Positions 1 through 36,804 of a stretch of DNA of 64,000 nt are shown piece after piece (position 1 is the first letter of the stretch; every line of letters begins with the position of its first letter). Position numbers and translations under genes: made by a program. The notes beneath the pieces are model-generated. The model ran no database searches. It worked only from the letters and a program-made list of their open reading frames with translations, and had not been told where the DNA came from. This stretch comes from Zingiber officinale (taxonomy: Eukaryota; Streptophyta; Magnoliopsida; Zingiberales; Zingiberaceae): contig NC_056000.1 in assembly GCF_018446385.1 (NCBI RefSeq), positions 76,952,688-77,016,687 of the forward strand, read 5' to 3'.

Positions 1-420
1 CCGGACGGAAGAACCGTTCGGCGAACGTCGCGGTCGGCCGAGCGGGACATCTGCTCAGCTAATCATACGGCGGCCCCGGTGCTATCTGGACGAACGGGAG
101 AACCTCGATAGTCATGGTTCCCGCTCGACCGAGACGAAAACTGCTCAATCCTTGTCCCTTGCTGTTAAGCCGTGCTAGTCACCCGCCGGACATCGGGAGC
201 TCGGACTCGAGATGAGCCGAGCTAAGGTGATGACTGTTGACTTTTACCTTGACGGTTGACTTTGACGTCACACGTGGCCTAAGACCCTCTGTCGGACGGG
301 GGTCATATCTTACTGTCGGATCATCTATGATTCTCACCTTGGTCGGCGCCACCGAACGTTCTCCTTGAAATTCAAACATCTCAGTGCCCGATCGAGCAGT
401 AAGTACTTAAGAGGTGTTAT
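1..420. repeat. GC-rich repeat-like edge sequence, no gene recognised
   Basis: This stretch is much more GC- and CpG-rich than the flanking gene tail and contains phrases such as GGCCGAGCGGGA and GGTCGGCGCCACC that resemble the composition of the Tat element LTRs in this window. A 66-codon minus-strand frame at 179-379 shows no recognisable domain. It is cut by the window edge. The best guess is the end of a degraded LTR or other repeat lying just downstream of the minus-strand host gene. That is inference from composition only. Confidence 0.3.
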
Positions 421-628: not shown

Positions 629-3600
629 CTAAGATTTCTCTTCATCTGATTGGTGTGAGCAGAGTCCATTCGCAACATCAGCTAAGTATTCTTCGACTGA
701 AAAAGAAACACAAATACTCGAGGAGGATCATTAAACACTCGCAAAGAGTTATTAATCTTTGCAGCGCATAAAGTGAAGAAATTTTGGGAAAGGTGATGAA
801 GTTAATTACCTATATCTTCCTGTTCTGGGGAGCCCAGCAAGATGTCTGAATCCGATGGCAAGAACGGAGAACCATCATAGTCTCCTAGATCTCCAAGATC
901 TTGTATGGACCAAACCAGTTATTGTGTTAATGAACATTTAGTAAAGGATCATTTGTGAAAAGAACTATCCAGTAAGCACTTGTGATACTCGTGCTGGTTT
1001 CAATTGTTTGCAGTCAATTGCATGACTCTTTATCTTTGATTGAACTATTAATATATCCTTCTCCTATACTTTTATAATTGCATTAACCAGAGTTTTCTTT
1101 GGTCTCTCGCACAGGACACCTTCAATTCTAATTGATCTTCTAAACTATAGGTGTTGATGATTGATGAACAATTTCAACTTCTATTACTAATCAGTAGTCC
1201 CTCCGGTTTTTAGGGTATAATCCTCATCTCTTTGGCATTGATCTAGCATCACCATAAGAATAATTATTTCTAAGTTACAATTTTTTGTAGCGTATATATG
1301 CCTCAGTTAGCAAGCAAACAAGAATATGGACATTGTGTTCTAGGATTTCATTTGTGTTTGCTTCCTACTGAGATAATGCTGTTCATCCGTCATGCCTAGC
1401 AAATCAACGATCAATTTTTTTGCCAAAGATATAATCATATATCTGAAAGTCTAAGAGCAAAATCACCTGCTATATTTGTCAAGTCCATGGTCAATTCAGA
1501 CAGACTGAAATTCCAAAACTGTCCTAACGATCGCATTATATCTCTTGACTGCTCCACACCATCTGAACTTAGTTGCAGTCCTGCATTTGGCACATCAGAT
1601 AGAAAGGTTGAATCGAGTGCTGAGGCATTTATGCCTGTTCCAGATTTCTCAGGAGTGAAAGGAAAATGAGCGCTTGATGTTGCTGGTGCAGGGCTCATAG
1701 CCATCTCAGACATGGAAGAAATGGCATAACTTGGAGGGGTCGCATGAGCCACTTCAGCTGTGCCACTGCTAATCATAAATGATTAAATAGACAATGTTTC
1801 ATCAAACAAAGAACAAGCAAAAGGATGAATTGAATTTAAACACGATGTTCTGATTAATGTCAGTTAAACTACTACAGAGAAAGATAAGCTGGAAATCATA
1901 GAAGTGTGTTCATAACAAGTCTCATTCTGGATCAACCAGGAAAAAAAAAGTCTTTCACAGACAGAACGTCTCCCTACATTGTATAAAAAAATGATAGAGA
2001 CTGATCCTGTCCGAAGACGCGAAGCTGAAAAGTCAAAGAGGTAACAGTTTCGCTGACAGGATGAAGACTCGCTCCTTTCTATAAAACAAAAACCAAAATC
2101 AGGGAAGGGATCCCTAGCGTTGGCCCTCCGACGTTCAAGTCAAAAACAGAAAAAGAAGAGAGTAAAAGTATTAGGGACAAAAATCTATCTTGTTTTTTTT
2201 TGTAGCTGACATACTCTTTTATACCTTTCTCGGCGACCCTCCATCTTTCCAAATTTAATGATATTAATTGCCAACGGAAGACATCTTTATCTTGACTGTT
2301 TCTTATTTAATGATAGATGAAGTGTTCTCTTTTATCTTCTCCTTCCCCTATTAATTATCTTGAGCCGGACGGGTGGCCCGCTCGGTTCGGGCTTCTGGCC
2401 CGCTCAACTTGCTCTTTTGCCGCCCTGGTTAACCAGTCACTGGTTCACTCAAATGGCCGACCGGACAATGATCCTTCCGATTGGCCCGTCCCGCTCAACT
2501 TGCTCTCTTGCCGCTCTGGTTTGACCAGTCACTGGTTCACTCAGATGGTTGACCGGACAATGATCCTTTTGATCGGCCGATGAACCACTTCCCGCTCAAG
2601 CGCGACCGAGCCTTAAGCCCTGGCGTGGACTGCCTTGACTTTAACCTATCACGTGACAATTGATCCCCCTTATCGCTGCATCATAAGTCTTCCCCTTCAA
2701 GTTTAGTCGAAAGAGACTGCAAGTCAGACTGACTAGACAGTTGATGTCTTAATACCAAATCAACCTATGCGCTGAGACACCCCTGAACCAACGCCACTCG
2801 ACTTTACTTTGCCTTGGCTGATCAGGAAGATTGTGTGCCAATCGGGAGGATGGTCAGCAATACTTCTCAAAATTTTTGACCTTCATGGTATCCCTTCAAG
2901 CGGGCGTGATTTTGGCTGACGTCATTTGAATTTCTCGAAATCCGCATAAATCCTCAAAAATTATGGCTAAGTATGCGACCATACCTTTTTAATTAAGGGC
3001 TTTAAATGCGGCCTTTTGACTGAAGGACATATGTCCTATATTATCGTCGCATGCCTGATGTGACGGACGAACATCCACCTGACGTGACGTGTACCATTTT
3101 CAAATTTAGCGGTTGTATTTGTTTCTAGGTTTGTGCATCCTAGATCGGACGGTTGTCGTCGATCGGCCGCAAGCTTTATAAGTCTCGCGTGTGTCGTCGT
3201 CGTCTACTTCGCCCTTTTGTCTTTAGATTTTGCTGTTGCGGGCTCTTCTCCAATGAATTTGTCGTTGCGCTCTCTTCTCCGGTGATCTTTCCTCTTTCTC
3301 ATAAGCCTTCCTTTTCATTCGGCTCATTTGGTTGTTTCTTAGCGTCCTCTCTCTTTTTCGATCGAACTTGTTGTGTTCTTGTCAATCTTTTGTGTCTGAT
3401 GGCAAGTTCCTCTCAACTTCCTGTCTCTGTTCCTGGCCTCTGGTACACCTCCGTCGAATCTAGATTCGACGGGGGTGATGTAGAAAGCCTAAACTCTGCA
3501 TATGAAATTCCTCCGGACTATGAAATTGTCCTTCCTTCTTCATTCGATCGACCCCATGAGCCATCTCCAGGCTTTGTATGTTTCTTTAGGGACCAATTTA

Positions 3601-6600
3601 TCGTTGGTCTACTGTTCCCTGTCCACCCCTTCTTCTTTGCAGTTTGCAAAAACTTTCATATTTCTCTCCATCAGCTAGTGCCCTACTCTTTTCGGTTGTT
3701 GTGTGGTGTTGTAGTCCTTTTTCGTCTGCACGACATTCCTCTATCCGCTCGGCTCTTCCACTACTTCTATTATTCAAAACTGTCCGAGCCAGGGACTTTC
3801 CTATTCCAAGACCGAGTGGGCTTGGTCTTTTTCGATAAGATGTCATCCTCCAATAAACATCGGAAGGATAATACTATTTTTTTTTGTCAAATTCCCCGAT
3901 CGGCCTGATTTTCCTACCGGCTGGAAGCTAGAGGTTGTGAATCCACCGTCGCTCGGTAGGTACAAGGGTCGATTATACTACCTTCAAGCTGGTCAAAAAT
4001 ATGATATCCACAAGTTACTACTGAAGGGCATCCTCTACGTATTTGGCTTGAGTCTGATCTACACAAGGCTTCCGTTCAGCCTAGGTATGCTCCTTCTTAG
4101 TCTAACTTTTGAATCTAACTGATTTCTCTTTTTCTTTTGTAGCTCAACTTATGTTGCGCGCACGCCTGGCTGGAAAATCCAAACTCGCGGATGCAGAGAT
4201 CAATGCTGTAGCCGTGGCTAAGTTGGAGAGCCACGGTTTGCAGCCGGTCGTCTCTCATGAGGATCCGCTCGGAGAGAGCATATGAGCCCCAGGCCAAGGG
4301 AGCGATGGAGTGGCCAGTCATACAGTTGGTGGTGAAGCGAATGTCGCAGTGAATCCCCTGCCAGAGCATCTTCCGGTAATTCCAATCGCCGAGGCCTCGA
4401 AATCGGCTTCTTCTAGAGAGTCGTTGATAAGCCCAAAGAGGCGCCGCGTGGAGATTGTCGCCCGACCTACTACCTCCGCGACACAAACTCCAACCAGGAC
4501 CAGTCCACGTCTTTCATCAGAGAGGGGTAAGACCTCCACCCCCTGCGCCCGAGCAAGCGACGACCATCCCACATACTTCGCTTTCATCCGATCGGACGTC
4601 GTCTTTATCCGGACTGCCGCAAGAGATAATCTGTGCGCCGTCGGTCGCTTTCATACCACCTCCACTGCCTAAGACTCGGAAGTTCAGCATCCGACCGGCG
4701 TCAACCTCTAGGTCAGTTGCCAGAGCAACCTCAGCCCCGTCTGCCCCAAGTCGCCAGTGCCACATAACGACGGTCATTCATCTGCCCACAGACGAGTGGC
4801 GTGATTTTGACAATGCTAAATCTCGAGGCTCGAAGCACCAAATAATCATCCAGAGACCGCTAGCACAGATATGGGTCGACACCCGAGCCCGTGCGATGGT
4901 CATGCCTCTAGGACGCTTGCCGACAGTCATATCCAGATGTTCACTGGGTTAAGTATTTTACAAGTTACTTTTTGTCACCACTCGATCCTTAAAAATTTAT
5001 CATTTCCTCACAGTATTGGGTAGAGAGTCAGGCCATATGCCAAAAGCTAGCATTTTTGGAGTAAGAAGTCAAGCAGTTGTGAGCCCCGAGCGGCCAATCA
5101 TCTGCTTCCCAAACGCAGCTAGAGCAGATGAATGCTAAAATGGCTCAACTAAGAGTTGATCTGAATAAGAGCTCCGAGTAACTGGAGGCGGAGAAGAGCA
5201 AAGGCGCCGAGCAGGCTGATCAATTGGCTCGGCTTGTTAAACAGGTCAGCTCCTTCGAGTCCAAACTCAATTTGGCCAACACTAAAAAGCTCCGATCCAT
5301 CGAGGACTTAGAGATCAAAAATAAAGAATCCTGGGTGTTGACCCAGAACCTAAAGGAGGTGGAGGCTTCATTGAAGGCCGAGCAGGATAGATTATCAGCC
5401 GACCAGACCGCAGCGAAGACTAAACTCGCTAAAAAAGATGAAGAGCTGGCCAAGTTGAACGAAGAGCTGAAAGCTTCTCGAGCGGCCTTAGAGACTTGTC
5501 AGGGAGCCAAGTCGAGCAGGTTCGACCTCATGAAGCAGGCTTACATCCGCTCAGATGCTTTTAATGACAAGGTCTCTAATCGGGCATTTTGTCTATTCGA
5601 CCTTGCTATCGACAGGAGATCAACTGAAGGAAGGCGTCTACCTCCCCACCGCTTTGACAAGCAAGATCATTAACCGGGACAAACTGATTGAGTTGCTGCC
5701 CGATGATATTTTAGATTATTTTGAGTGAACCTGCTCATGTGTGTTTTACTTTTGTATTTTTTGAAGTGTCAATGAATGATAGTCTATCTAACGAACCATT
5801 ATTTTTCTTTGTCTCTTTCTGGTCGTTCGACATTTTTGACTTGTATTTAGATCAGATGTTGTGCAAACCGAAGTGTGGCCTCGTGTTCTTCCGATCTGTT
5901 TTCTAAGACGATCGACCTTTTCCGATTTTAAGATCGACACTCGACCATTTTCATGGCGTAGACGTGGGTTTAAGGTCGTCACTCGACTGTCGGTGAAGAC
6001 ATGGGTTTAAGGTCGCCGTTGGACCATTGATGAAGACATGGGTTTAAGGTCGTTGCTCGACCGTTGATGAAGACATGGGTTTAAGGTCGTCGCTCGACCG
6101 TTGGTGAAAACATGGGTTTAAGGTCGTCGCTCGACTGTTGGTGAAGACATGGGTTTAAAGTCGCCGCTCGATTGTTGGTGAAGACATGAGTTTAAGGTTG
6201 CCGCTCGATCGTTGGTGAAGACATGAGTTTAAGGTCGCCACTCGACGGTTGGTGAAAACATGGGTTTAAAGTCTACGCTCGACCGTTGGTGAAGACATGA
6301 GTTTAAGGTCGTCGCTCGACTGTTGGTGAAGACATGAGTTTAAGGTTGTCACTCGACCATTGATAAGGACATAGGTTTAAGGTCGCCGCTCGACCGTCGG
6401 TGAAGACATGGGTTTATAGTCATCACTTGACTTATAAGTCTGGAATGCTTGCGATTTTATTCATATTTGTCCTGCATTAAGAAGATATACACGCACATAC
6501 AGGTAAATATAATCATTCACACCTCTTACCTGGCCCTATAGGGTTGGAGGTGGTTCGCACTCCATGGTCGCTCGAGCTATCTTCCGTCTTCGTCTTCCAA

Positions 6601-9600
6601 ATAATATGCTCCTGAGCGGAGTTTCTGCATGACCTTATAGAGTCCCACCCATGGAGCTTTGAGTTTGGTGACGTCGCTGATCAGCTTTATCTTCTTCCAC
6701 ACTAGATCGCCGACCTAGAAGGACCGCGGGATAACCCTCTTGTTGTAGTTATGTTTCATCCGCTGCCGGTATGCCATCAACCGAATGGCAGCCTTGTCCT
6801 GTGCTTCGTCGACCAAGTCTAGCTCCATCAGTCTCTGCTCGCAGTTCTCCTCATCATAGCGCCGCACCCTATCGGACTCCACTCCGACTTCCACTGGGAC
6901 TAGTACTTCACCGCCATACACCAAATGGAATGGCGTCATGCCGGTCGCTTCCTTTGGGGTCATGCGCAGGGCCTATAAGACGCTAGGGAGTTCGTTGACC
7001 CAGTTGCCTCCTGCGTGGTCGAGCCAAGCTCTCAATCCTTTGAGAATCTCCCGATTGGTGACTTCCGCTTGGCCGTTGCTTTGGGGGTAAGCCATCGAGG
7101 TGAAGGCCTGCTGGATACCATAGCCTTCGCATCATTCCTTGAGCCTTCGATCGGTGAATTGCCTCCTCTTGTCTGAGACAAGCCATCGGGGGATGCTGAA
7201 CCATCATAAGATATTTTGCCAGACGAACTTGATGCCTATCTGTTCACTTATTTTTGCCAATGGTTCAACTTCCACCCATTTTGAGAAGTAGTCCACAGCG
7301 ACGAGCAGGAACCTCCGCTGACTGATTGCCATGGGAAATAGTCTCACAATGTCCATGCCCCATTGGTCGAATGGGCAAGACACTGTGGATGTTTTCATCT
7401 CTTCAGTTGGTCGATGTGGGATGTTATGATACCTTTAGCAGGACAGACATGTGGCTACTGTCTGAGCGGCATCCTTTTGGAGAGTTGACCAAAAATATCC
7501 GGCCAGGAGAATCTTTTGAGCCAGCGAACAACCACCTGGATGGCTTCCGCAGGAGCCTTGGTGCACATCTTGTAGGATATACTCTGCATCCTCTGGTCCT
7601 ATGCACTTAAGTAAAGGTCTGGAGAAGGCTCTTTAATACAGCTGATCTTCGACCAAAGTAAACCGTCTGACCCTCTTCTTTAATAGTCGTGCTACCTTTC
7701 AGTCGACCGACGTGATACCCGATCGGAGGAATTCGATCAGTGGCGTTCTCCAGTTGCTCGAGCAGACCACTCCCTCCATCCGGTCGATGTGTGCAACCAG
7801 CGAGACTTGTTCAATTAGCTGGCTGATCACGATGGATGATAATGAACTAGCTAACTTAGCCAGCTCATCTGCCGCTTGATTGTCCGATCAGGGGATCTTC
7901 TATATAGTAACTTCTTGAAAATTTGCCTTTGACTTCTCAAAGGCTTCTGCATATAACTTGAGTCGGGAGCTGCTAATTTCGAATGTCCCTGATAGCTGTT
8001 GGGCGGCCAACTGAGAATCTGAGTGAATGAAGACTTTTGTGGCCCCGACATACCGCGCTGCCTGTAAGCCAGCTATCAAGACTTCATACTCAACTTCATT
8101 GTTGGTGGCCCGATAATCCAGTCGAATGGAAAGTTGCATCCAGTCTTCTTGTGGTGAAATTGTTGAAACCCCAAGGTTGTTTTGATGTGATCAACAAGTT
8201 AAGTTAGGTCCTGTAGTGTTTTAACCTTGTGTCTAAGTGTACAAGAACTTAGGAGCATAGGGAGTTGAGCAAAAGACGCAGCTAGCGAGAAGGGCGGCAT
8301 GGGAGAAAGCCGACGGGCTCAGTGCGTCAGAGAGACGAGGTATTACAGAATAGTACGCGAGTGGATGAGAAGGAAGCACACGACATTTTCGAGGGACGAG
8401 AAGTCAGAGCGGAAGGTTGCTTGAGAAGGCCAAAATTGAGTTCGGATGAGCCTTATTTCGGTTGGCTGAAATCACCCAAGTAAGTGGAGCTTGAGCGGAA
8501 GACCCGGACCGAGACGAGCAGCACCGGAGCAGAGGGCCCGGACCCATTCCGGGCGCCCGAAGCGATTCCGGGCGCCCAGAACTTGATTTTGACCAGATCG
8601 CAATCAAATGTGATCCGTTGCGAAGGGGATAAAATTTTATCCCCTCCTAGACGCTTGGAACCCTTCCAGGCGCCTCGACCAAGGCTATAAATACAGCCTT
8701 AGTTCAGAAGTTTTTGAACAGAACAAGAATTAGCAATACAACACTTGTGAACTTCCTTTTCTAGTTTAGCTACTCTTTTTGCACTTTCACTGCTGTAAGA
8801 GGCTTCTCCGCCTGAAAGAGATCTTTTTAGTGTGTGGTTCATTCATTGGATTAACAACCTCCCCGGTTGTAACCAAATCAAGTCTGTAAGCCTCTTCTCT
8901 TAGTTTATTGCTTTCTTTATTTAATTTTATGCAAGTGTTTAAGTTACAAGTTTGAGAAGGGTATTTTTGTTTTTGTGTTTGTGTTTGTTTAGGGCTATTC
9001 AACCCCCCCTTCTAGCCGACCAACGCGGTCCAACAAGTGGTATCAGAGCCAGGACGCTTCAGGAGGACTAACCGCCGATCGAAGTAAAGACGATGGCCGG
9101 ACTAAGCAAATACCCGTCAAAATTCGAAGGGGAGTTTGCTAGCTGGAAAAAGCTAATGCAGGTATTTTTCAAAACGGATTTTGATTTACTTTTGATAATA
9201 GAGTTCGGTTTTACAGCATCGGAAGGGAAAGAAAAATATCGGTGGAGAAAAAAGGAGCAGGCCAACTACGTGGCAAATGACAAAGCAGAATTCCATCTGT
9301 TGAGCGTCCTTCTGCCACAAGAAGTCAACCGGATCAGCAACTACGACTTAGCAAAGGAATTGTGGGAAAAGTTCCTTGAGCTACATGAAGGGGCGTTCGA
9401 AGCCAAGCTCGCAAGACGGAATTTACTTCGCAACCAGCTCACCAACCTGAGACTTGAAGAAGATGAAACAGTTGCGCATCTGCACTCGAGAATTAAGAAG
9501 CTTATCACCGAACTCTCGAATCTCGGAGAAAAGGTAAGTAGCAGAGATTCACTAAGGTACACACTCAATTCATTTCCTAGAAATACTAAATGGGCATCAC

Positions 9601-12600
9601 TAGTAGATGCTTTTTATATATCTAAGGACTTAGAAACTATTTCCTTTGAAGAATTAGTTTCCACATTTGAAGTGCATGAATCGAGATGTGCAGGTACGAA
9701 GGAGACGAAGCACAACGTCGCCCTCAAAGCATTGAGAGACGAACCTGAGTCAGAGTCTTCTCTCGACGATGATGAATTGGTAATGATGGTAAAGCGCTTT
9801 AAGAAATTATGTAATTCAAGAAAACTAACCATCCGCAGGGTAGAAAGAAAAGGAAGATCAGATGCTACCACTGGAACGAAAAAGAGCACGTCAAAGACAA
9901 CTGCCCCAAGCTAAAGAACAAGGACAAGGATAAAGAAAAGAAGTCTGTCCAAACAAAAAGGTTCAAGACACTAAAAGCGATGTGGGATGATACGTCGTCC
10001 GAATCGGAAATCGAGGCCTTCTCCGAACTTGCACTAATGGCAAGTCATCAAGACGAGGACTACGATTCAAGCTCGTCCGAAATGAGCATCGAGAGCATCG
10101 ATGAAGGGGGAGTTACGTCAGAAGAAAGCAACAGTTCAAGGGAAGCCACGGATAATGAGGTCGACAAGGTAAGTTAGGTACGATCTCTTCCTCCCGATAA
10201 ATTATTTATGTTTGTTAAATTATTAACTAATGATTGTTGTAAGTTAGAAAAAGAGATTAAAAATTTAAAAATAATTCTAGCTAAATCTTGCCCATTAAAA
10301 GAATTAGATAAATTAAAATTCGAAAATAATGATTTTAAAATATAAGTAGATAACTTTAAAAATCATGCATGTTCACATAATACAAAGTTTAGAAAATACA
10401 ACAATATAAATTGGTATTTTAGATATCACAAGGGATAAATCAAGAAAATTTCAAAAAAGTATGTACCTAAGAAATTCTTAATTAATCCAGTTGGTTGGAA
10501 CCTATATTGGGTTCTAAAGTCTTGTTTAATCTAAACTCTAAATTAGACTTAACGCTTTCAGCGAAAAGATTAAACGTTAAATTTCTTTATGAGGTTTTGT
10601 CTAAGAAAGTGGTTGTTGCTCCAATAACCAAGAAGGCCTATTGCCTCGTCATTGTCTGAAAGTCAAAATATTGAAATAAAATATTTAATTAACTTACTGA
10701 TAAAACATTAAAATTGAAATTAAATAATACTTTAAAAAGTTTTTCAAACATTTCTTTTAAAATTACTTAAAAGTCTTTTTAACCGTAGAATTTTTAACTT
10801 AAGAAAATTTTCTTGCATTAATTTTTTTTTTTTTTGCTTAGAAAAGTTCTCAAAAATATTTTAATTTTTTTTAGCTAAAAGTTATTGCAAATTTTTGATG
10901 ATATTAATAATTTTCAAATTTTTATAAAGTTTTTTATAACCCTTAGATTTTTCTTGGAACCCCATTTTTTATGTGATTAAAGGGGGAGAAGGAAAATGTT
11001 AAGTCTAGGGGGAGGTAGATCATTTTTTAAATTATTTTTTGCACTTTATTGCAATATTATGTGTTTTACTTTTATGCCTATTTACCCTAGCTTAATTTAG
11101 GTTGCTCACATCAAAAGGGGGGAGATTGTTGGAACCCCAAGATTGTTTTGATGTGATCAACAAGTTAAGTTAGGTCCTGTGGTGTTTTAACCTTGTGTCT
11201 AAATGTGCAGGAGCTTAGGAGCACAGGGAGTCGAGCAAAAGACGCAGCTAGCGAGAAGGGCGGTACGAGAAAGAGCCGACGGACTTGGTGCGTCTGAGGG
11301 ACGAGGTGTTGCGGAAGAGTACGCGGGTGGACGAGAAGGAAACGCGCGACATTTCTGAGAGGCGAGAAGCTGGAGCGAATGGTTGCTCGAGAAGGCTGAA
11401 ATTGGGTTCGAGTGAATCTTATTTCAGTTGGCTGAAATCACCCAAGCGAGTGGAGCCGGAGCGGAAGACCCGGACCGAGGCGAGTAACATCGGAGCAGAG
11501 GGCCTGGACCAAAAGTCAACTATGTTGACTTTAGTGGTCCGGGCGCACAGAGTGATTCCGGGCGCCCAGAACTTGATTTTGAATGGATCGCGGTCAAATG
11601 CGATCCGTTGCGAAGGGGATAAAATTGTATCCCCTCCCAGGCACCTGTAACCCTTTCAAGCGCCTCAACCAAGGCTGTAAATACAACCTTGGTCTAGAAG
11701 ATTTTGAACAGAACAAGAATTAGCAATGCAACACTTGTGAGCTTCCTTTTCTAGTTTAGCTTCTCTTTTTGCGCTTTCACTGTTGTAAGAGGCTTCTCCG
11801 CCCGAAGGAGATCGTTTTAGTGTGTGATTCATTCCTTCGATTAACAACCTCCCCGGTTGTAACCAAGTCAAGTCTGTGAACCTCTTCTTTTAGTTTATAT
11901 CTTTCTTTATTTAATTTTATACAAGTGTTTAATTTATAAGTTTGAGAAGGGTATTTTGTGTTTGTGTTTGTTTAGGGCTATTCAACCCCCCTTCTAGTCG
12001 GTCAACGCGGTCCAACAGAAATAAGCAGAATGTCGACCCCGTTGCCTTGTCGAGTGGATGGACCATCGACATATATTCTCCAAGTTATTGTCGGCTCGGC
12101 ATTCTAGACCTCTATAACAAAATTAGCCAAGGTATGAGCTTTGATCGCCGTTCGAGGTTGATATTGGATATCAAACTCACTTAGTTCGGTTGTCTATTTG
12201 ATTAGTCGCCCAGACGTTTCTGGGTTGAGGAGGACTTTTCCCAGGGTACTTTTGGTCATGACAATGATTGGGTGAGCAAGAAAGTATAGACGGAGTCTCC
12301 GAGCGGCAAGCACCAGAGCATAAGCTAACTTTTCCATACCAGTGTAGCGAGATTCATCATCTTTTAATATATGGCTTAAAAAATACATAGGTCGTTCATG
12401 GCCATTCTGCTTGACCAATGCTGATCCGACCGCATGCTCGGTGGATAAAAAATAGATCCAAAGAGGCTCTCCGATGTTCGGCTTAGCTAGCACAGGTAAG
12501 GAATTAAGATACTCCGTGAGTTCTTCCAAAGCCCGATCGCATTCTGCATCCCATTGGAATCTTGTAACTCGGCGCAGTACTTTGAAGAATGGTAGACTCC

Positions 12601-15600
12601 GATCGAATGTTTTAGAGATGAACCTTGAAAGTGCGGTGATCCATCCGATCAACCATTGGGCCTCCTTCAAATTGTGAGGCGGAGGCATGTCTTGCAGGGC
12701 TTTTATCTTACTCGGATTTGCCTCGATCCCTCGCTCGATCACGATATACCCGAGAAAACGATTGTTCCTTGTGCCGAATAGGCACTTGCTGGGATTCAGC
12801 TTTATTCCATAGGTTCTCAAAGTTTGGAATGTCTCCTCGACGTCTGCACAGAGGCCGGTCACTCAGAGGGATTTTATTAGTATGTCATCGACATAGACCT
12901 CCATGTTTCGGCCGATCTACCTACGGAACACTTTATTCATTAGCCTTTGGTAGGTTGCTCCGATGTTCTTCAGTCAGAACGGCATGATGTTGTAGCAATA
13001 GGTTCTGTCGACCATGATGAAACTAACCTTTTCTTGATCTTCTCGGACGAGCGACACTTGGTGGTAGCCTTGGTATGCATCGAGCATACATATTAATTCG
13101 TAGCCCGCTGTGTAGTCCACCATTTGGTCTATCTGAGGCAACAAATAGAAGTCCTTTGGGCATACCTTATTTAAGTCACAGAAGTCGATGTAGACCCGTC
13201 ATTTATTGCTTGATTTAGAGACTAATACTAAGTTAGCGAGCCAACTCGGGAATTGGACTTCCCGTATATGGCCGACCTCCAGTAATTTTTCTATCTCCGT
13301 CTGGATGATCAAATTCTGCTCCGGGCTGAAGTCTCTCATCTTCTGTTTAATCGGCCAGGAGTCCGGTCGGACATGTAGCTTGTGCTGAGGCACGCTCGAA
13401 GAAATGCGAGACAATTCGTGCATCACCAAGCGAGCACGTAATAGTTTCGTCTGAGGTAGGCGACTAACTCTGCTTTTTTCTCGCTCTTTAGATCGGGGGC
13501 GATAAAGGTTGTTGTCTCCGATCGGTTTGGATGGATCTGGACCTCCTCCTTCTCATCGTAGATTAGAGCAGGAGGCTTCTCCATGATAGCGCTCACCTCC
13601 AAGTGCGGTGTCTTCTGGGCGGTTCATGCTTCCGTTCTGACCATCTCGACGTAGCAACGTTGAGCAGCCAATTGATCGCCTCTGACCTCACCCACCTCGT
13701 CCCCTACCGGGAACTTGATCTTCTGGCAGAAAGTGGATACCACCGCTCGGAACTCATTCAGCGTCAGGTGGCCCAGAATGACGTTGTAGGCTGACGGCGC
13801 ATCCACCATGATGAAATTTATCGTCCATGTTCTCTTCAACGGCTCGTCCCCGAGCGAGACGGCCAAACGCAGTTGGCCGATCGGCAACACTTGGTTGTCA
13901 GTGAACCCGTAGAGTGGAGTCGTCATGGGCAGTAAATTGCTATGGTCGATTTGTAGTTGATCGAACACTTTCTTGAATATAATGTTCACCGAGCTTCCTG
14001 TGTCAACAAAGGTACGGTCAATAACATAATTAGCTATTACCGCTCAGATAATCAGGGCGCCATCAAGGGGGATCTCTACCCCCTCCATATCCTTCGGGCT
14101 GAAGCTGATCTCAGGTCCTTTGGCCTTCTCCTTGCTGCAACCGACCGCGTGAATTTCAATCCGCCGAGCGTGCAACTTTCTTGCTCGATTGGAATCACCA
14201 CAGGTCGGCCCCCCGACGATCATTCCTATTTCACCTCGAGTGGCGTTGCTCCTATTTTCTTCCTCTCGAGCTGAGGGTCGTCTCTGTTCGGCCTGCTCCC
14301 GAACAAGACTTGGATTCTTCCGTTGTTGAAATTGATTGCGGCGTAGTTCAACCTCTATCCTTTTGCCTTCCCTTCGCCCAACTGATCGACGCCTATATTT
14401 CCAATCGGACGATGGTGACTGATGATACTGCCTTCTTGGGGTTGGTCTGTTAGCAGGTAGCAGTCCCGGATATTATGAGTCATCGACTGATGGAAAGAGT
14501 AAAATATCGGCGTCCATATTTTGCCCCTAGAGGCTTTTGGGAGTCCGGCCCCAATGTGCTGCATGACATGCATCCTAGGCTCGTGTTGTGATCGAGTTCC
14601 TCCGGATCGGGGTCCTATAGGAAGCTAATGGTTGTTCAGTTGACGTCGCTCGGACGCCACCGCTGGTTCGGTGGGTGCCTCTTTTTTCCTGATTGCTTGG
14701 GCTTCTTCGGCATTGATGTATTCATTGTCCCTTTTTTATAGATGGCCAAAGTTCTTTGGTGGCTTCCGGATGAGTGACCGGAAGAATTCTCCTTCAGCGA
14801 GCCCCTGAGTGAAAGTGTTTACCAATACATCCGAGGAGATAGCCAGGATGTCGATCGCCACCTGACTGAAGCCTTGGATATATGCCCTTAAGGTCTCTCG
14901 GGGCCTTGCTTCAGTGAGAATAAATTTACGCTTGTCTTCTGGTGGCGGCGACTGCTAGCAAAGTGATGGAAGAAGACCGCTCGGAAGTCTTTGAAGCCGT
15001 GGATCGAGTCGCTCGGTAAACGTTTGAACTAGCATTGTGTTGATCCAGATAACATGGTAAGGAAGACTCGGCATTTTACCCCATCTGTGTATTGTATTGG
15101 TGCAGCGTGGCGACGTTGTCAAATTTGGCCAGGTGGTCGTCGGGGTCGGTCGCCCCATTATATTCGCCAATTGTCAATGAGGTGTAGTGGTTTGGCAGAG
15201 GGCCATTTAGAATCCCCTCTGAAAACTGTTGATTGACCCGTTCGGGCGAGTCGTCCTCCCTGGGTTTTCTTTTTCTTGTGTTTCGAACGGGTGCCTCATC
15301 AGAGAATGATCCCCGATCTTTATCCACGCAACCCCTCTCAGCTGGAGCCCATAACAGGGCTGCACATTAGGGGCTTCCCTATAGGTGCCAATCGACATCT
15401 TGCTCAGTTCTCGAGCGGAGTGTTGTTCAGCTGACCACCCCACTATTGAGGCTGTAGGTTCTTGCACTTGACGATCAGCCAACTCTTGTTGTTGTTGCTC
15501 TACTATCTTTGCCGCCCAGGCTTATATTAGCGTGTCGAGCTCGTCTTGCATCAGCGTTACCGTCGTGAATCGTCCAGCGTTTTCCATCTTCTCGTTCGGA

Positions 15601-18600
15601 TGCAGGCTACGTTCTCATAGACGGTGCCAAAATGATCCTGTCCGAAGGTGCGAAGCTAGAAAGCCGGGGAGGTGGTAGTTCCTCTGATGGGATGAAGACC
15701 TCGCTCCTTTCTGCAAAACAAAAACCAAAACCAGGGAAGGGGTCCCTGGCGTTAGCCCTCCGACACTCAAGTAATAAACAGAAAAAAAAGAGAGTGAAAG
15801 TATTAGGGACAAAGATCTATCTTGCCTTTCTTTGTACCTGGCAAACCCTTTTATACCTTTCTCGGTGACCCTCCATCTTTCCTGATTTAATGATATTAAT
15901 TGCCAACGGAAGACATCTTTATCTTGGCTGCTTCTTATTTAATGATAGATGGAGTGTTTTCTTTTGTCTTCTCCTTCCCCTATTAATTATCTCGAGTCGG
16001 ACGAGTGGCCCGCTCGGTTCGGGCTTCTGGCCCACTCAACTTGCTCTTTTGCCGCCCTGGTTTACTAGTCACTGGTTCACTCAGATGGCCGACCGGACAA
16101 TGATCCTTTTGATCGGCCCATCTGGTTCGGACTTCTGGTCCGCTCAACTTGCTAACTTGCTCTTTTGCCGCCCTGGTTAACCAGTCACTGGTTCACTCAG
16201 ATGGTCGACCGGACAATGATCCTTCCGATCGGCCCGTCCGGCTTAAGCTTCTGGCTCGCTCAACTTGCTCTCTTACCACCTTGGTTGACCAGTCACTGGT
16301 TCACTCAAATGGTCGACCGGACAATGATCCTTCCGATCGGCCGATAAACCGCTTCCCGCTTGAGCACGACCAAGTTTTAAGCTCTGGTGTAGACCATCTT
16401 AACTTTAACCTATTATATGGCAATTTATCCATACTAGATAGATTCTTTTTATCATCGCATCATAGATAAACCAGAAAAAGAAAAGGGGGGCGATCCAGAT
16501 CTTCCTATGCGAAAAGGAAAACAATATCTCACTATTTTAAAATATTCATAGGGAAAAATAATTTCTTACCTGGTCCCAGAATTGATGTGACTGGGATGAA
16601 AAGTTCCAGGTGCAGGAATAACATTGACTGTATGGCAGCTGGAGATTCCACAAGCCATTGCGTCATGGGGCTGACCTGTAACTGGCATTGGCATTGGGTG
16701 CTGAGGAAGAATAGGATATCCCATGGGCAAATTGACTGCGCTGCAAATGTGATAATTAAGCTTTGTGTTCTACAAAAGCAATATGGCAGACGGAAAGAAA
16801 GAGCAACTCATCTTAGTCTTATTATTTGGGGAAAGCAACAAAAATCATATCCTTCTATTGAATTCTATCCAAAGCTATACGAACATACCAACGAGTGTTC
16901 TATTTGATCTTCCTCTTAACCTCTTATTCATTCAGCTTGTCTAACTATAAATTCTATCCATCATCTTCAAACATATTGTTTACACCATTATAACTTATTT
17001 CCTTTTATTTTATCATATTGTGGAGCAACCCTCATGTTCCTAGATAGTAGTGTTTTTTATTTTATTTTAGATATGTTTCATTACTGCTACTACCCACCAT
17101 AAAGTCCATCAGATTATAACACAACCTTATAAATTTTTCCTTATCTCTCTATCTATATCTTTAATATTTCTTTATTGTTGAATAATAAATCTTAGTCGAC
17201 CATTAGTCATTTACAGACCATGCATATATCCTTCCTGGAAAGAGAAAAGAATAAGCATCCATATGATCTTGATCTGTGTGGAGTGAAAAAGACATACTAG
17301 ATCTGACTTCTAACATCAATAAAAGACTTGTTTTTGATAATAGATATCTAAAACTCTTGTAAATTTTTCGGAATTTATTTATTTTAACATTTCTCATAGC
17401 AATTTTTCCTTATTATCCAAACTACATTTTAGTTATGCTTAACTTATATCTTTGGCTCATAATGTTTCTCCATTCTTCTATCTTTGAATTTAATCTATTT
17501 ACGCACTATCAATTGGAGCATTATCGCAATGAGAGTTCAAAGGAATCAATCAAATAAATTACCTGGCATAGGGTGAATCGCATTTTGAATAGGAGCCAAT
17601 GGAATCTTAGACTGGACAGGATACTTCATCAGATGGTACTGGTGCTTGAGCAAATGATTGAACAGAATGATTTGCTTCTTCAATTTTAGTCTTATATAAT
17701 AGGCTCTGAAAAATTCCGAGTTTTCTTCTTCCAATTTCTTCCATACTGACAAAACATAAAGTAAATAATAAGATATCATTAGTAGTCTACGATCAAGGCA
17801 TATGGTTATGAGTATTATTATTCACAACCCAAGAATTACAAATTGGTTATATCAATTTATAACAAATTTTAAGATTTTAGGTTTAAAATGCATACCTAGA
17901 GTTGTGAAACTAGGTTCTATCCTAGCTCGATTAGACAATATGCGAACTACCTCCCCTCTGTTCATATACAGTTGTAGACATCGTTCAATCAAGTTTTGCA
18001 CCTGAAAAAGAAGTGAATGAGATAGGAAATAAGCCATGAACAACCAATGACTGTGTTCATGCTATCTTTGCAGAATGTTCTTAATTGATAAAACTAAATA
18101 ATAGAACCAGCAACGAGCTGCCTCACCAGTTCAATGTCATCACGACGAACCTTGCTAGTGTTACTGCTTGCATTGGAAACTGAAGCAGAATCTTCTATAG
18201 GAGCTTCAACAAGTGGAGCATGTTGATAGTCACCTAGTAAATCATGCGCAGCTTCAGGCGATGGCTGTCCTTCTCCATGATGGCGATCCTGCAGAAAATT
18301 CCCTTGAGAAATTTCTAAAGATAAAAATAAGCTAAAATGACAAGGTATCCTCAGGGATACAATCTGAAAGAGATCTTATTCCATTATGGTCTTATCCTTC
18401 TCTTTCACCTGCCATATTGTAATCCGGAGCATTCCACTTTTAACATGTTCATGCGATAAACTTAATTTATTTCTACAGAAATGATTATTGTTTTGTTGGG
18501 CAGAGGTGTTGCTATTGCGGTCATCCGTTCATATGAAAACAAATACTAAATGAAAGTGAAACTATTTGTTAGTGAGATTTTGTTAAGATTAGAAATGACA

Positions 18601-18625
18601 AAGTTTTCACCTGCGAAGCCTGCAT
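629..18625 (-). CDS. Plant-specific A_thal_3526 (TIGR01589) domain protein, 8 coding exons, complete
   Basis: Coding exons on the minus strand: 18611-18625, 18127-18288, 17896-18001, 17563-17745, 16570-16735, 1467-1768, 810-899 and 629-696. Every intron is GT-AG, and the exon lengths sum to 1092 bp, in frame, for 363 aa. The start (MQASQ) was chosen because it splices in phase to the next exon and lies just after an acceptor-bounded leader exon. Residues about 60-127 form the plant domain: VQNLIERCLQLYM, then WKKLEEENSEFFRAYYIRLK. A Met/Pro-rich linker follows (MACGISSCH motif near residue 186), then an FPFTP motif, WNFSLSELT near residue 298, and the conserved tail GSPFLPSDSDILL (321-333), ending SDEEKS. 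Known family members are of uncharacterised function; the domain looks helical and charged. I infer an intracellular, possibly regulatory role but cannot assign one. The fifth coding intron (1769-16569) holds a 14.5-kb nested retroelement. All exons are open, so the gene looks functional if that intron is spliced. Confidence 0.92.
2002..2683 (-). repeat. 3' LTR of the Tat element
   Basis: Homologous over its length to 15633-16462; on the minus strand it begins TGATGCAGC and ends GGACAGGATCA. It contains two copies of a unit around ACCAGTCACTGGTTCACTCA, whereas the other LTR has three, which explains its shorter length (682 versus 830 bp). Confidence 0.82.
3153..5712 (+). pseudogene. Antisense additional ORF (aORF) of the Tat element, PF04195-like plus coiled coil
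   Basis: The plus strand, opposite to gag-pol, encodes a region matching the 'putative gypsy type transposon' family (PF04195 as I recall it). The block at about 3560-3900 has the pattern of a hydrophobic VHPFFFAV stretch, then RLLCGVVVLFRL, LFHYFYY and SSNKH. Downstream, 5224-5560 encodes a Lys/Glu/Leu-rich coiled coil. Tat elements are known to carry such an extra ORF in antisense between pol and the 3' LTR, and its role is unknown. This copy is a broken fossil, interrupted in several places. Confidence 0.7.
5964..6444. repeat. Tandem array of a 37-bp unit, 13 copies, inside the Tat element
   Basis: The phrase GGGTTTAAGGTCG recurs with an exact 37-bp period from 5964 to the last start at 6408, giving 13 units with no length slippage. 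Units differ by point changes (for example TCGACCGTTGGTGAAGACAT versus TCGATTGTTGGTGAAGACAT), and the last unit is degenerate. It lies between the antisense ORF and the integrase end of pol. Confidence 0.92.
6560..7660 (-). pseudogene. Tat integrase region, broken
   Basis: Minus-strand frames show integrase features: a core segment with FDQWGMDIV and VAVDYFSKWVE-like motifs (about 7250-7390), a TPKEATGMTPFHLVYGGE-like segment (about 6890-6960), and an upstream zinc-binding part near 7430-7600. These are standard Ty3/Gypsy integrase landmarks. The region has several breaks and no product is expected. Confidence 0.82.
7661..8155 (-). pseudogene. Second RNase H (aRNH-type) region of the Tat element, interrupted by nested element A
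   Basis: The minus-strand frame at 7900-8139 reads TNNEVEYEVLIAGLQAAR and IHSDSQLAAQQ, the hallmark of the extra RNase H domain found in Tat elements. The nested Copia element begins at 8161 after a 5-bp target duplication, so the domain is split and resumes at about 12023. Confidence 0.75.
8161..9035 (+). repeat. 5' LTR of element A
   Basis: 875 bp, TGTTGAAACC to CCAACA. Near its 3' end is the motif GGCTATTCA followed by a C-run and TTCTAG (8992-9015), shared with elements B, W and Z. A TATA-like ATAAATACAG sits near 8687-8696. Confidence 0.9.
9038..9049 (+). other. Primer-binding site of element A
   Basis: TGGTATCAGAGC starts two bases after the 5' LTR and is complementary to the 3' end of plant initiator tRNA-Met, the usual Copia primer. 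Confidence 0.88.
9093..10540 (+). pseudogene. Gag-like region of element A (UBN2 type), broken
   Basis: The first open frame (9093-9914) has the Copia gag look: FEGEFASWKKLMQVFF, then LWEKFLELHEG and LARRNLLRNQL. Further on (9980-10177) is a Ser/Asp/Glu-rich acidic segment starting MWDDTSSESEIEAF. The related copy B (41482-42051) shows a zinc-knuckle-like CYHYNEEGYVKDNC between these parts. Coding similarity fades after about 10540. No pol follows. It has a small number of breaks. Confidence 0.75.
11127..12017 (+). repeat. 3' LTR of element A
   Basis: 891 bp, TGTTGGAACC to CCAACA, homologous to 8161-9035 along its whole length, with the same C-run motif at about 11976-11997. Confidence 0.9.
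12023..13560 (-). pseudogene. Tat reverse transcriptase and first RNase H region, broken
   Basis: The minus-strand frame at 12194-12862 contains the RT thumb (LNPSKCLFG, FLGYIV) and the RNase H segment (ERPMYFLSHIL, KLAYALVLAARRLR). The frame at 13199-13429 contains the start of RT (LLEVGHIREVQFPSWLANLVLV). The region is broken several times. Confidence 0.83.
13561..15560 (-). pseudogene. Tat gag and protease region, broken
   Basis: Gag starts near 15482 on the minus strand. Frames at 15076-15327 (GEYNGATDPDDHLAKF, a Tat gag landmark) and 14955-15170 follow, and the 13624-13989 segment contains DAPSAYNVILGHLTLNEFRAV, typical of the protease-to-RT junction. The region has multiple breaks and no intact product. 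Confidence 0.78.
15633..16462 (-). repeat. 5' LTR of the Tat element
   Basis: Partner of the LTR at 2002-2683. It is longer because an internal unit of about 110 bp (CAACTTGCTCTTTTGCCGCC followed by the CACTGGTTCACTCA phrase) is present three times. The sequence just inside (15616-15632) is the Tat-type primer-binding region on the minus strand. Confidence 0.82.
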
Positions 18626-18746
18626 TTCAGCTCAGCCTGAGCATGATAATGAAGCTTAACTCATGTGACTTACAAGGACTGAAGGATAGACCGAGATTTG
18701 TTACTGCCCTGGAGATTCAGTACTAATCATGCTCTGTAGCTACTGC
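18611..18746 (-). other. Leader exon of the A_thal_3526 gene with upstream AUGs
   Basis: On the minus strand an acceptor (TTGCTTCACAG, ending at 18747) opens an exon that runs to the donor at 18610 and includes the chosen start codon at 18623-18625. Short upstream AUGs are present, one followed directly by a stop (about 18722). This suggests a spliced 5' UTR whose small upstream frames could damp translation. The first leader exon probably lies further up, near 19.9-20.1 kb, but I could not fix it. Confidence 0.5.
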
Positions 18747-20100
18747 CTGTGAAGCAATATGAATAAGATCTCAGTAAGGCTGCTGAAAATAGATGACGCA
18801 GGAAGGTAAAAGGACATCGATCCTATCTGCTGCCAACATAAAAAGCAAATCAAATTTACGAAAAGATGTTAAACATAAATGTCATACCGTTCACATCCAA
18901 AATCAGTTGCAAAGACTCTTGTCATAGTGAACTCCCAAAAAAAAAAGTCAAGAAAACCAGCTTAACACAAGAAATTTTTGCTACAGACAAGTCTTGAAAT
19001 TTTTTTATGAATTATGACATTATCACATGACGACAAACTAAAGTTTGTACCAAGATTACTGTAGGAAATTACAAATCCAGAAGGATGATGATGCAGTAAC
19101 AGGAAATTACAAAGATAACACCTTTAAATCAGCTACTTAATCAGGTGTTATTATCCCTGAAAAGCATGTGGTTTACAAACATGAAACATTTGGCTATCGA
19201 TGTCTCCATTATCTCCTAAAAGTCTTCCCCTTGAAAAGAATTATGAGAGCAATATACGACCATACAATTATTCCCAATAACAATTGCGTGTTAAAAACAA
19301 TAGGTCGACAAGCACAATGAAGGACAATTTCAGCTCCAGAATACACTGTCAAGCAACGATTACTTCTTCTTTTTCTTTTTTTTTTTCAGTTCTGTACTGT
19401 GCACACGATACTGGTAACTGAGCTCCAAAGTGCATGCAAATTGCAAGAAATAAATTTAAAACAAATAATTTACATCTCAGGCATCAATGAACAGCGTAAC
19501 TATACAACCAACAAAAAGATGAATCTTCAACTACATATAAGATTTTTTTTGCTGCCTTCTAACAGTTCCTAATCGAAAATCATAAAAGGAGCGCCTTGAG
19601 CTCCCATCCAGCTAAAACATGGTACTAAAGTTGACAGTACGAAGCGAGAGGTGGGAAGAAAACAAGGGATTCGAACACACTACACCATCCGAAATATGTA
19701 GGAAACGCGACGTTTCATCGAATGGTTTTCAGCTATATGCGATGGGGGAAAAAGCATAAAATAATAATTTCCGATTTGCAGCTCAAGAACGCATATTGGA
19801 AACACAGCAATGGAGGAAACTGACCATTAAACAAAACGGTTGAGGAAAGAAGATGAGAAATGGGGGGGAAAATTAAGAGTTTATGGTGCTCGATCTCCTC
19901 TCTCCCCAACCAACCACGGAGGCAGAATGGTAAAGCGGCGGATAGAAAGCTCCCAGTTATACCACTTGGGCAACGACATAGATTTCCTTACGATGACAGG
20001 TTTACCTTGGACGACCATGCAACGCTGTCGTGGGGACATGAGCACGGGGAAGGTCCAATAAACCATCTCAGATTTCATGATTTCATGGCGGACTGATGTT
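18747..20100 (-). promoter_or_regulatory. Probable 5' leader intron, first exon and promoter zone of the A_thal_3526 gene
   Basis: No coding exon is visible here. The 18.75-19.8 kb part is AT-rich and intron-like. At about 19880-20090, read on the minus strand, the sequence becomes GC-balanced with CT/GA-rich runs typical of a plant 5' UTR, and a GTAAAC donor-like site sits near 20007. The overlapping frames on both strands at 19840-20114 look like chance open frames in that leader. Promoter position is inferred, not shown. Confidence 0.3.
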
Positions 20101-23099: not shown

Positions 23100-25018
23100 A
23101 TGGTTCCTTTCCAAGTGTGGATTGGAGTGGCGCTGCTCCCTCTCCTGCTTCAATGCAGCTTGGCGGTGACAGAGGCGTCGTGCGCCGATGTGGTGCCTCT
23201 GAAGTTGCGGCGGGAGGTGATATCGATCACCGACTTTGGGGCGGTGGGGGATGGGAAGACGCTTAATACTTGGCCCTTCAAGAAGGCTATTTACAGGATT
23301 CAGCACATGAGGAAGAGGGGCGGGACGCTGCTCTACATCCCTCCTGGTGTTTGGCTCACAGGAAGCTTCAGCTTAACCAGTCATATGACTCTTTACTTAG
23401 CCCGAGGTGCGGTCATCAAGTCCACACAGGTGATGCTCCTCGTAACATTTTAAGCTAATGCCCCCAATTAAGCAATTCAACAAAGTTTTCCAGAGATGTC
23501 AACTTGCTTACATGCAAGTTGAAAAAAAAAAAGCAGGAAAATGCACAAAGTACAGATTGAACTAGTGTTGAGAGTGTAACACCTTAAACAAACTACCACA
23601 ACAATCATTATGCCAGAAAGAAAGGTTAAAGAACTCTTTACATGTGCAGGATACAAGGAATTGGCCTTTGGTAGATCCTCTGCCATCATACGGAAGAGGG
23701 AGGGAGCTCCCTGGCAAGAGATACATGAGCTTTATTCAAGGAGATGGCATTAGTGATGTGATCATAACAGGTAAACTGCAACCAAGTTCCCCTAGCTATG
23801 TTGTTTGATATGCTATAATAGTTTGTGGGATCTGCCTAATGATCCTCATATTTGCCTTTCTTTAAACAGGCGAGAATGGAACCATTGATGGTCAAGGTGA
23901 AGTTTGGTGGAATATGTGGAGAAAGGGATCTCTGCACCACACAAGGCCAAACCTCCTAGAGTTCAAGAATTCTAGAGATATTTTAATTTCCAACACAGTC
24001 TTTCAAAATTCTCCATTTTGGAGTATCCATCCTGTTTATTGCAGGTGACTCCAAATCTTTCCCTTTTCTTTTTAACCTTTCAATTTTTGCATTGAGAAAA
24101 AGAGGATTCACACATGTTTCTAACTCTGTATTATTTGTGCAGCAATGTGGTGATAAAATACGTGACAGTGTTGGCTCCATATGACTCTCCTAATACCGAT
24201 GGCATAGATCCAGGTAACCTTCTTCCTGATGATACTTCATGGTATTTATTTTGCTCTTTTGCTCTTCATTATATTGGAATTTCTATACCTAGCACTCGTA
24301 GGAATTTCCTTTAGTTTCTTATCAGATCTATGACAGTTCGAGGCCTCACTAGTAAGACTTCAATTTTCAAAAAAACTTAGATTCCAGCTCAAATGTCTGC
24401 ATTGAGGATGCCCACATCGCAACAGGAGATGATTTGGTGGCCATAAAGAGTGGCTGGGACGAATATGGAATTGCTTATGGTCGTCCGAGCTCAGGCATCA
24501 CAATCCGAAGGCTCACCGGATCTTCTCCTTTCTCTGGGATTGCAATAGGGAGTGAGACCTCAGGTGGGGTGCATAATATCTTGGTGGAGAACATAAACCT
24601 CTATAACACTGGATTTGGGATCCATATAAAGACTAATGTTGGAAGGGGAGGATACATAAGGAATGTGACTGTGATAAATGTAAGCATGAATAAGGTCCGC
24701 CAGGCCATCAGAATTGCCGGAGATGTCGGTGACCACCCTGATGAGTACTTCAACCGGCATGCAGTCCCGACGGTCGATGGAGTGACCATCAAGAATGTGT
24801 TGGGAGTGGATATACAGCAGCCTGGATCGATAGAAGGCATTAGGAGCTCACCCTTCACTCGGGTATGCCTCTGCAATGTCAAACTTTGGGGTGTGCGGCC
24901 ACACACTGAGTCATGGAGGTGCACCGACGTAAGTGGAGCAGCACTTGGTGTTCAGCCATGGCCATGCTCGGAGCTCACTGACACAGTTACTGCAGGGTTT
25001 TGCTCAAGTGCTTTCTGA
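23100..25018 (+). CDS. GH28 polygalacturonase-like (pectinase) protein, secreted, 5 exons, complete
   Basis: Exons 23100-23429, 23650-23770, 23870-24044, 24143-24213 and 24381-25018 join in phase (1335 bp, 444 aa) with GT-AG introns. A signal peptide (about residues 1-29, hydrophobic VALLPLLL) sends it to the wall. ITDFGAVGDGKTLNT (43-57) opens the right-handed beta-helix fold. The GH28 aspartates are present in NTDGID (226-231) and GDD (248-250, within GDDLVAIKSG), and the substrate-binding Lys is in IHIKT (313-317). The usual GHG histidine motif is replaced by GSETSGG (289-295), which is the pattern of a plant clade of 'probable polygalacturonases' as I recall it, so classic endo-hydrolase activity is uncertain. 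Expected role: trimming homogalacturonan in the cell wall. No neighbour shares its pathway. The length is normal for the family. Confidence 0.94.
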
Positions 25019-33150: not shown

Positions 33151-33212
33151 AGCCTATATATTCGTCTCTGGCTCAGTACCCGGTACTGTCACAATGGCAG
33201 GCTCAGACTCAG

Positions 33213-35290: not shown

Positions 35291-35379
35291 CCAGGCCGGT
35301 GATCAACACTTACAGTTCATTGACAGTCAGATAGCTTCCGGGCAGGAGACCGAGTTCACACGAGATGAGGAGGGTATTA

Positions 35380-36690: not shown

Positions 36691-36804
36691 TTGAGGTATG
36701 TGGATTAATTTATCATTCAACATTTATACTCTTTATCTGTTGTTGGTACCTGCTGATGGTAGATAACGAAATTTGGGGATTAAATTTTTATTAGTGGGGG
36801 TGAA

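Follow-up and report, generated by a model that had tools for sequence, protein, structure and literature searches.

Introduction

In Arabidopsis, IBM1, RPP7 (with COPIA-R7) and other targets of IBM2, EDM2 and EDM3 carry transposable elements (TEs) or heterochromatin within the gene, with a possible choice of proximal polyadenylation (poly(A)) sites, and these cases rest on experiments. TE-filled, heterochromatic introns are common in plants and are reported in over 10% of rice genes; in rice genes regulated by OsIBM2, heterochromatic introns are described as longer and faster-evolving than other introns and as enriched near promoters (PMC7145194). Genes of this sort are reported to depend on IBM2-type factors in Arabidopsis as well as in rice. 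Here we describe a comparable locus of ginger, Zingiber officinale, known here from sequence alone: within a stretch of 64,000 nucleotides (hereafter the window; contig NC_056000.1 of assembly GCF_018446385.1, denoted C15, positions 76952688-77016687), a gene encoding an A_thal_3526 domain (PF09713/TIGR01589) spans a long fifth coding intron filled by a Tat long terminal repeat (LTR) retrotransposon that itself holds a second element. Like the rice genes described as OsIBM2-regulated, this is an apparently working gene with a long, TE-filled intron; unlike them, the intron is the fifth coding one, methylation is deduced from mutations alone, and the comparison is between two haplotypes of one plant.

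Both components of the locus have described relatives. The outer element resembles the Retand subclade of the Tat clade, as characterized in PMC6317226, in having an additional RNase H flanked by RNase H on one side and integrase on the other (as also in Ogre), and perhaps in an extra open reading frame (eORF) with weak similarity to Transposase_28; it departs from typical Retand elements in being decayed and interrupted, with its polyprotein in many short frames. The host protein shares its domain with the BPG4/PEL/RPGE/DGP proteins (PMC10774444, PMC12696372). BPG4 is reported to lower GLK activity, and its A_thal_3526 domain to bind GLK1 at the C-terminal box (PMC10774444); the rice PEL proteins, of 78-102 residues, are termed microproteins (PMC12696372), and Arabidopsis BPG4 has 95 residues, whereas the ginger protein has 362-363, with a long C-terminal part. 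Our literature searches on the ginger genome, the domain and intronic elements, none aimed at the locus itself, met no paper on it.

We consider it probable that, taken as a whole, the locus is best explained by a single insertion, probable methylation and read-through to a full-length protein. A single Retand-type Tat element would have inserted in sense into a short fifth coding intron of a functional A_thal_3526 gene, in an ancestor of both ginger haplotypes, and a non-autonomous copia-type element would later have inserted antisense into Tat on one of them. Transcription would run through Tat, the original splice sites removing the whole 11-15 kb, and the full-length protein would still be made, probably aided by machinery of the IBM2/EDM2 type, which handles introns of this sort in plants. 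In kind this would be an ordinary heterochromatic, TE-filled intron; its one odd feature is the deep genealogy of the intronic Tat.

Results

An intact gene in five copies

The window was compared with an assembly of 3.09 Gb in 211 contigs. Near-identical copies sit on contigs with adjacent numbers (C1/C2, C5/C6, C7/C8, C9/C10, C11/C12 and C15/C16), from which we infer that such contigs are phased partner chromosomes and that C15 and C16 are the two haplotypes of one chromosome; the haplotype-resolved ginger assembly is described as 3.1 Gb with 11 chromosome pairs (PMC8342452). The gene lies on the minus strand, with a coding region at 629-18625 whose eight exons join in phase. A first-pass annotation of the window had given the span 1467-16735 for its finding, which covers exons 5 and 6 and the intron between them. 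The joined frame, free of internal stops, encodes 363 residues, or 362 when exon 6 begins at the acceptor common to all five copies of the gene listed below, and ends in ...GSPFLPSDSDILLGSPEQEDIVEEYLADVANGLCSHQSDEEKS; its sole Pfam match is the A_thal_3526 domain (residues 60-111, E 1.2e-25, 89.9 bits, cut-off 27.8).

Three exon-sized DNA queries against the genome each listed the same five places, on C15, C16, C11, C12 and C17; a C18 partner of the C17 copy was not among the matches that these queries listed. All eight exons occur in each of the five copies, with GT-AG introns, no internal stop and coding sequences of 1086-1089 bases, so that the gene structure is not a product of chance and none of the copies is a microprotein of the PEL/BPG4 kind, having little beyond the domain. 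The tail GSPFLPSDSDILL is identical in four copies and has one change in that of C17. The earlier claim of an intact host gene, complete to its conserved tail, thus holds in every listed copy. Measured to the conserved acceptor, intron 5 is 14.8 kb in C15 and ~11.0 kb in C16, and 410, 409 and 357 bp in C11, C12 and C17; its alignment with the three related introns is too poor to locate an empty site to the base, and shows only that a short intron stands there. The upstream acceptor of exon 6, TTAG (start at 1768), occurs in C15 and C16 only, and the CAG before 1765 in all five copies. Positions 1766-1771 form a NAGCAG double acceptor, the upstream AG of which is present in both long-intron alleles and not in the three related copies (ATTGGCAG).

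One Tat insertion, older than the split of its two copies

Coordinates of the elements are collected in Table 1. At its right junction the outer element is bordered by TAGAT (16463-16467), and at its left by TAGAG (1995-1999) followed by two extra bases, AC, an imperfect target repeat. Read along the minus strand, the domains follow in the order RNase H (RH; 12862-12197), RVT_3 (8190-7903) and rve (7434-7207, below the Pfam cut-off). An extra RNase H (aRH) therefore lies between RH and integrase (INT), the feature that marks membership of Tat and the order reported for the angiosperm Ogre and Retand groups (PMC6317226). The Transposase_28-like ORF on the opposite strand, below cut-off, may point to Retand, in which this eORF is reported from 23% of elements (PMC6317226).

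The inner element sits between the two RNase H domains of Tat. It has two LTRs and a copia-type gag and is probably of the non-autonomous TR-GAG type; the 2.1 kb between its LTRs, with ~0.95 kb after the gag frames, are too short for a whole pol. Six ORFs of at least 35 residues follow the gag frames, and the profile search covered two of the four ORFs of at least 90 residues between the LTRs. Its gag reads on the plus strand, what looks like a primer-binding site directly follows 9035, and a purine tract precedes 11127; together they place the element on the plus strand, antisense to the gene. The description of a whole Tat element with another inside it, in the fifth intron, is thereby confirmed in its LTRs, its domains and the nested LTR pair; that of retroelements all on the strand of the gene is right for the outer element, which is in sense, and wrong for the inner one. 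On C16 the target site of the inner element is uninterrupted, with one copy of GAAAT.

The C16 counterpart of the Tat element (C16:64945207-64955839) shares both junctions, including the odd left one with TAGAG plus AC. The four LTRs align over 664 columns without gaps, of which 20 group the 5' LTRs against the 3' LTRs, three group them by haplotype and three crosswise. The majority state of 21 other family copies polarised seven of the 20 sites, five being derived in the 3' LTRs and two in the 5' LTRs, with three of the seven clear-cut (21/21 other copies agree); the other 13 had too few outgroup letters. These junctions and site patterns indicate that Tat inserted before the C15 and C16 copies split, and on the same grounds separate insertions in each haplotype were rejected.

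Kimura two-parameter (K2P) distances between LTRs are 0.149 (C15) and 0.146 (C16) for the outer element and 0.139 for the inner element; between haplotypes the 5' LTRs lie 0.088 apart and the 3' LTRs 0.141. At a rate of 1.3e-8, as used in PMC8342452, the outer distance corresponds to ~5.7 million years, a date that is only nominal because Tat changes far faster than the host DNA.

A methylation-type footprint ending at the Tat edges

Comparison of the alleles was confined to sequence up to 41260 that is common to both haplotypes and cleanly alignable; a tandem array (5901-6440), the inner element and the intervals 13105-13109, 19867-20947 and 26683-27164 were set aside on these grounds. Within these limits Tat differs at 1170 of 9919 sites (11.8%; 977 transitions, 193 transversions), and host DNA at 378 of 23602 (1.6%; 205 transitions, 173 transversions). 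In blocks of 500 columns, identity is 0.978-0.986 over 323-2001, 0.856-0.894 from 2002 to ~15600, 0.910 and 0.920 in the two final Tat blocks, and 0.982-0.992 over 16463-18381, with other host blocks at 0.944-0.998.

By sequence context, Tat transitions (four rows of counts summed) affect 313 of 1315 CG sites (23.8%), 266 of 1065 CHG sites (25.0%) and 398 of 2813 CHH sites (14.1%). Directly beside Tat (323-2001 plus 16463-18640) the counts are 5/122 (4.1%), 3/244 (1.2%) and 28/994 (2.8%), respectively. Such a pattern is what deamination of cytosines methylated in the CG, CHG and CHH contexts of plants would leave; it stops at the Tat edges, and suggests that Tat is probably held as densely methylated heterochromatin within the intron. 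The idea of intronic heterochromatin put forward in the first-pass annotation is borne out to this extent, the outer element bearing a methylation-type mutation footprint that ends where it ends; the footprint also agrees with the faster evolution of heterochromatic introns reported in rice (PMC7145194). Epigenetic control of splicing or alternative polyadenylation, proposed there as well, would be a further possibility.

Deep divergence of the two Tat copies

Transversions in Tat are likewise raised, to ~2.7 times the host level (P 2e-20 against host DNA). An intergenic gypsy stretch at 31178-38300, with gag and RNase H matches, served as control: it differs between the haplotypes at 393 of 7093 sites (340 transitions, 53 transversions), an overall divergence that is partly picked, since its limits were set by eye where divergence rises, although the transversion level played no part in setting them. 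Its transversions are at the host level (53/7093 vs 173/23602, P 0.87) and well below those of Tat (P 3e-11). Heterochromatin alone as the cause of the raised Tat transversions is not supported, because this stretch, present in both haplotypes, lacks them.

The Tat family was sampled as 30 copies cut out of 40 scored, from 9844 first-look candidates. Over 849 bp, six close pairs from partner contigs stand 2.0, 6.5, 6.5, 6.6, 7.3 and 7.4% apart, against 12.1% for the intron pair; over up to 3.8 kb the values are 2.8-6.6% against 11.7%. These six pairs were taken as normal for their closeness and partner-looking contigs (a seventh close pair, 0.2% apart with one member on an unplaced contig, was left out), and because they were picked by closeness, a divergence of "twice the normal" may be overstated. 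The intron copies are weak sisters (support 0.75) in an unrooted tree of the 30 copies over 849 bp, in which lengths summed from the base are ~0.08 and ~0.09 for them and ~0.08-0.15 for other copies. Their branches being no longer than those of the family, faster mutation of the two copies is not supported, and they seem to have parted early, soon after insertion. The flanking host sequence would then seem to have a much younger common ancestor than the two Tat copies. Allelic divergence of the 5' LTR is intermediate (8.2% vs 12.1% elsewhere in Tat, P 7e-4), as if a younger genealogy reached slightly into Tat on that side. Our best guess, and the simplest account, is that Tat is a non-recombining block with an older genealogy, around which the gene recombines.

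The main rival to this account of the divergence, which we judge decidedly unlikely, is that one Tat copy was overwritten by another family member after insertion, through ectopic conversion or LTR recombination. It would explain why the intron copies, 11.7-12.1% apart, are near the distance of unrelated family members (closest others 12.0-12.7%), with one copy on C10 (L030) 12.0% from the C15 Tat and so marginally nearer to it than the C16 counterpart over the 849 bp. It would also suit the few rare states that the pair has in common (13 in 3624 sites, which places it 13th among 379 pairs, compared with 34-61 in 2230-3598 sites, or 1.4-2.0%, in close partner pairs) and the slight divergence of the rest of intron 5 outside Tat (4 differences in 339 sites, 1.2%). 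Common descent of both LTRs is nevertheless favored by the 20:3:3 site patterns and by the five and two polarised sites; divergence is even along Tat, without tracts (blocks at 86-89% identity, the 5' LTR aside); and by alignment score the C15 and C16 copies are each other's best match.

A second Tat pair, L048/L050 (C6:109.17 Mb and C5:134.05 Mb; with L058/L059), is 12.2-12.6% apart, its adjoining 2.9 kb aligning at 89.3%. It may be another allelic deep pair, possibly in a deeply diverged stretch of the haplotypes.

Probable use of the gene downstream of the intron

Frame and splice sites are intact in both alleles. No coding indel separates them in 1092 aligned bases, whereas the 2680 non-coding bases of the gene and its flanks have 14 events, a coding deficit over the whole gene (5.7 expected, Poisson P 0.003). 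Exons 6-8 also bear the mark of long-term constraint (dN/dS, the nonsynonymous to synonymous ratio, 0.25 for C15-C11 and 0.38 for C15-C17), although most of the time behind it probably precedes the insertion. Read-through splicing across intron 5 appears likely.

Several observations weigh on the other side. The raised Tat transversions are not explained by methylation. Exons 6-8 taken alone have only 2.4 expected indels (P 0.09), so that their intact frame is weak evidence, and their allelic differences are one synonymous and five nonsynonymous, as against five and four in exons 1-5. A ratio of 1:5 is what relaxed selection below the intron would give, although Fisher tests show no significant imbalance, whether the reference is the C15-C11 ratio (P 0.21) or exons 1-5 (P 0.29).

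These differences would favor an alternative that we regard as unlikely, in which the intron is a partial terminator, exons 6-8 are weakly used, and the C11/C12 and C17 copies carry the full-length function. If intron 5 is kept, an in-frame stop at the donor, also found in the other four copies, yields a product of 211 residues in which the domain is complete, and the related copies are intact; both facts would allow it. Besides the lack of significance, it is opposed by the downstream splice sites, frame and conserved tail, intact in both alleles, and by the poly(A) signals. AATAAA occurs nine times in sense in the whole of intron 5 (shuffle mean 7.4, maximum 16), which is no enrichment, and the LTR first reached by transcription, 15633-16462, where termination had been expected, contains none. 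Plant poly(A) signals are, however, loose.

That the locus is a dying, unexpressed duplicate, intact-looking because its loss is recent, we hold to be very unlikely. The first-pass annotation had named, as grounds for doubting a working gene, another intact copy with this one unexpressed; the first half applies, since C16 has an intact allele and undamaged related copies lie on C11, C12 and C17, by which loss of the C15 copy could be buffered. Whole-gene allelic differences between C15 and C16 (six synonymous and ten nonsynonymous, one of the latter in the junction codon; dN/dS 0.48) also lean this way when set against the C11/C12 control (5.5 and 3.5; dN/dS 0.19). Yet neither haplotype has damage to frame or splice sites, the coding sequence has its indel deficit, and the host sequence adjoining Tat is without excess CG or CHG transitions.

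Least credible, and little more than speculation, is that Tat acts as a heterochromatin-gated switch, stopping inside it giving a 211-residue domain protein without the conserved tail and read-through the protein of 362-363 residues, with the haplotypes as allelic switch variants in an old non-recombining block. Were it so, the short product, somewhat PEL/BPG4-like, would keep the domain that binds GLK in BPG4, and the variants would be set apart by ~4 kb of intron length and by 12% divergence within Tat, the block itself predating the surrounding gene sequence.

Other features of the window

Directly beyond the 3' end of the gene, ~0.8-0.9 kb on C15 (L027 ~9455-10000 plus window 1-322) stand against ~0.14 kb on C16 (L016 ~883-1018), a difference specific to haplotype. 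An ORF of glycosyl hydrolase family 28 (polygalacturonase-like; PF00295, E 6.3e-19) lies at 24356-25015. Window 41261-64000, which holds zinc-knuckle and GAG-pre-integrase ORFs, aligns to the C16 stretch ending at 65009299 solely as short pieces (81-83% identity for those of at least 300 bp), and is probably a haplotype-specific repeat block.

Table 1. Exons of the A_thal_3526 gene and elements within its fifth intron, in window coordinates
Feature	Position	Strand	Remarks
Coding exon 1 (MQASQ)	18611-18625	-	ATG and GT donor in 5/5 copies
Coding exon 2	18127-18288	-	
Coding exon 3, start of A_thal_3526 domain	17896-18001	-	
Coding exon 4, remainder of A_thal_3526 domain	17563-17745	-	
Coding exon 5, directly before long intron	16570-16735	-	
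Intron 5, 14.8 kb	1769-16569	-	donor GTAAGAAA; acceptor TTAG, or CAG 3 bases further in
Coding exon 6	1467-1768	-	starts at 1765 with acceptor common to 5/5 copies
Coding exon 7 (GSPFLPSDSDILL)	810-899	-	
Coding exon 8, including stop codon	629-696	-	
Tat/Retand-like LTR retrotransposon, decayed	2002-16462	-	same junctions on C16
5' LTR of Tat, first reached by gene transcription	15633-16462	-	
Tat reverse transcriptase end and RNase H	12197-12862	-	RT_RNaseH_2 E 2.7e-16; RT_RNaseH E 1.6e-11
Second RNase H (aRH-like), end bases at left border of inner element	7903-8190	-	RVT_3 E 2.1e-9, above cut-off
Integrase core fragment, weak	7207-7434	-	rve E 7.4e-4, 20.2 bits, below cut-off 32.6
37-bp tandem array within Tat, 12.4 copies	5960-6416	.	
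Extra ORF, Transposase_28-like	3144-3905	+	PF04195 E 1e-4, 22.9 bits, below cut-off 26.2
3' LTR of Tat	2002-2683	-	
Inner gag-only copia-type element	8161-12017	+	absent from haplotype C16
LTRs of inner element	8161-9035 and 11127-12017	+	perfect 5-bp target duplication GAAAT, 8156-8160 / 12018-12022
gag ORF of inner element	9072-9911	+	Retrotran_gag_2 (PF14223) E 2e-17

Significance

An allelic effect at this gene would not be surprising, since the ginger alleles with the largest expression differences are reported to lie closer to TEs (PMC8342452). The locus offers a phased test within a single plant, its alleles having a common insertion, a nested element in one of them and exon markers on both sides of the intron, and allele-specific full-length RNA could show what each additional 4 kb of intron costs. 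The comparison further suggests that, for want of a methylome, divergence between haplotypes could provide a methylation footprint. The allelic divergence of the intronic Tat looks too deep for its surroundings, and would mislead LTR dating.

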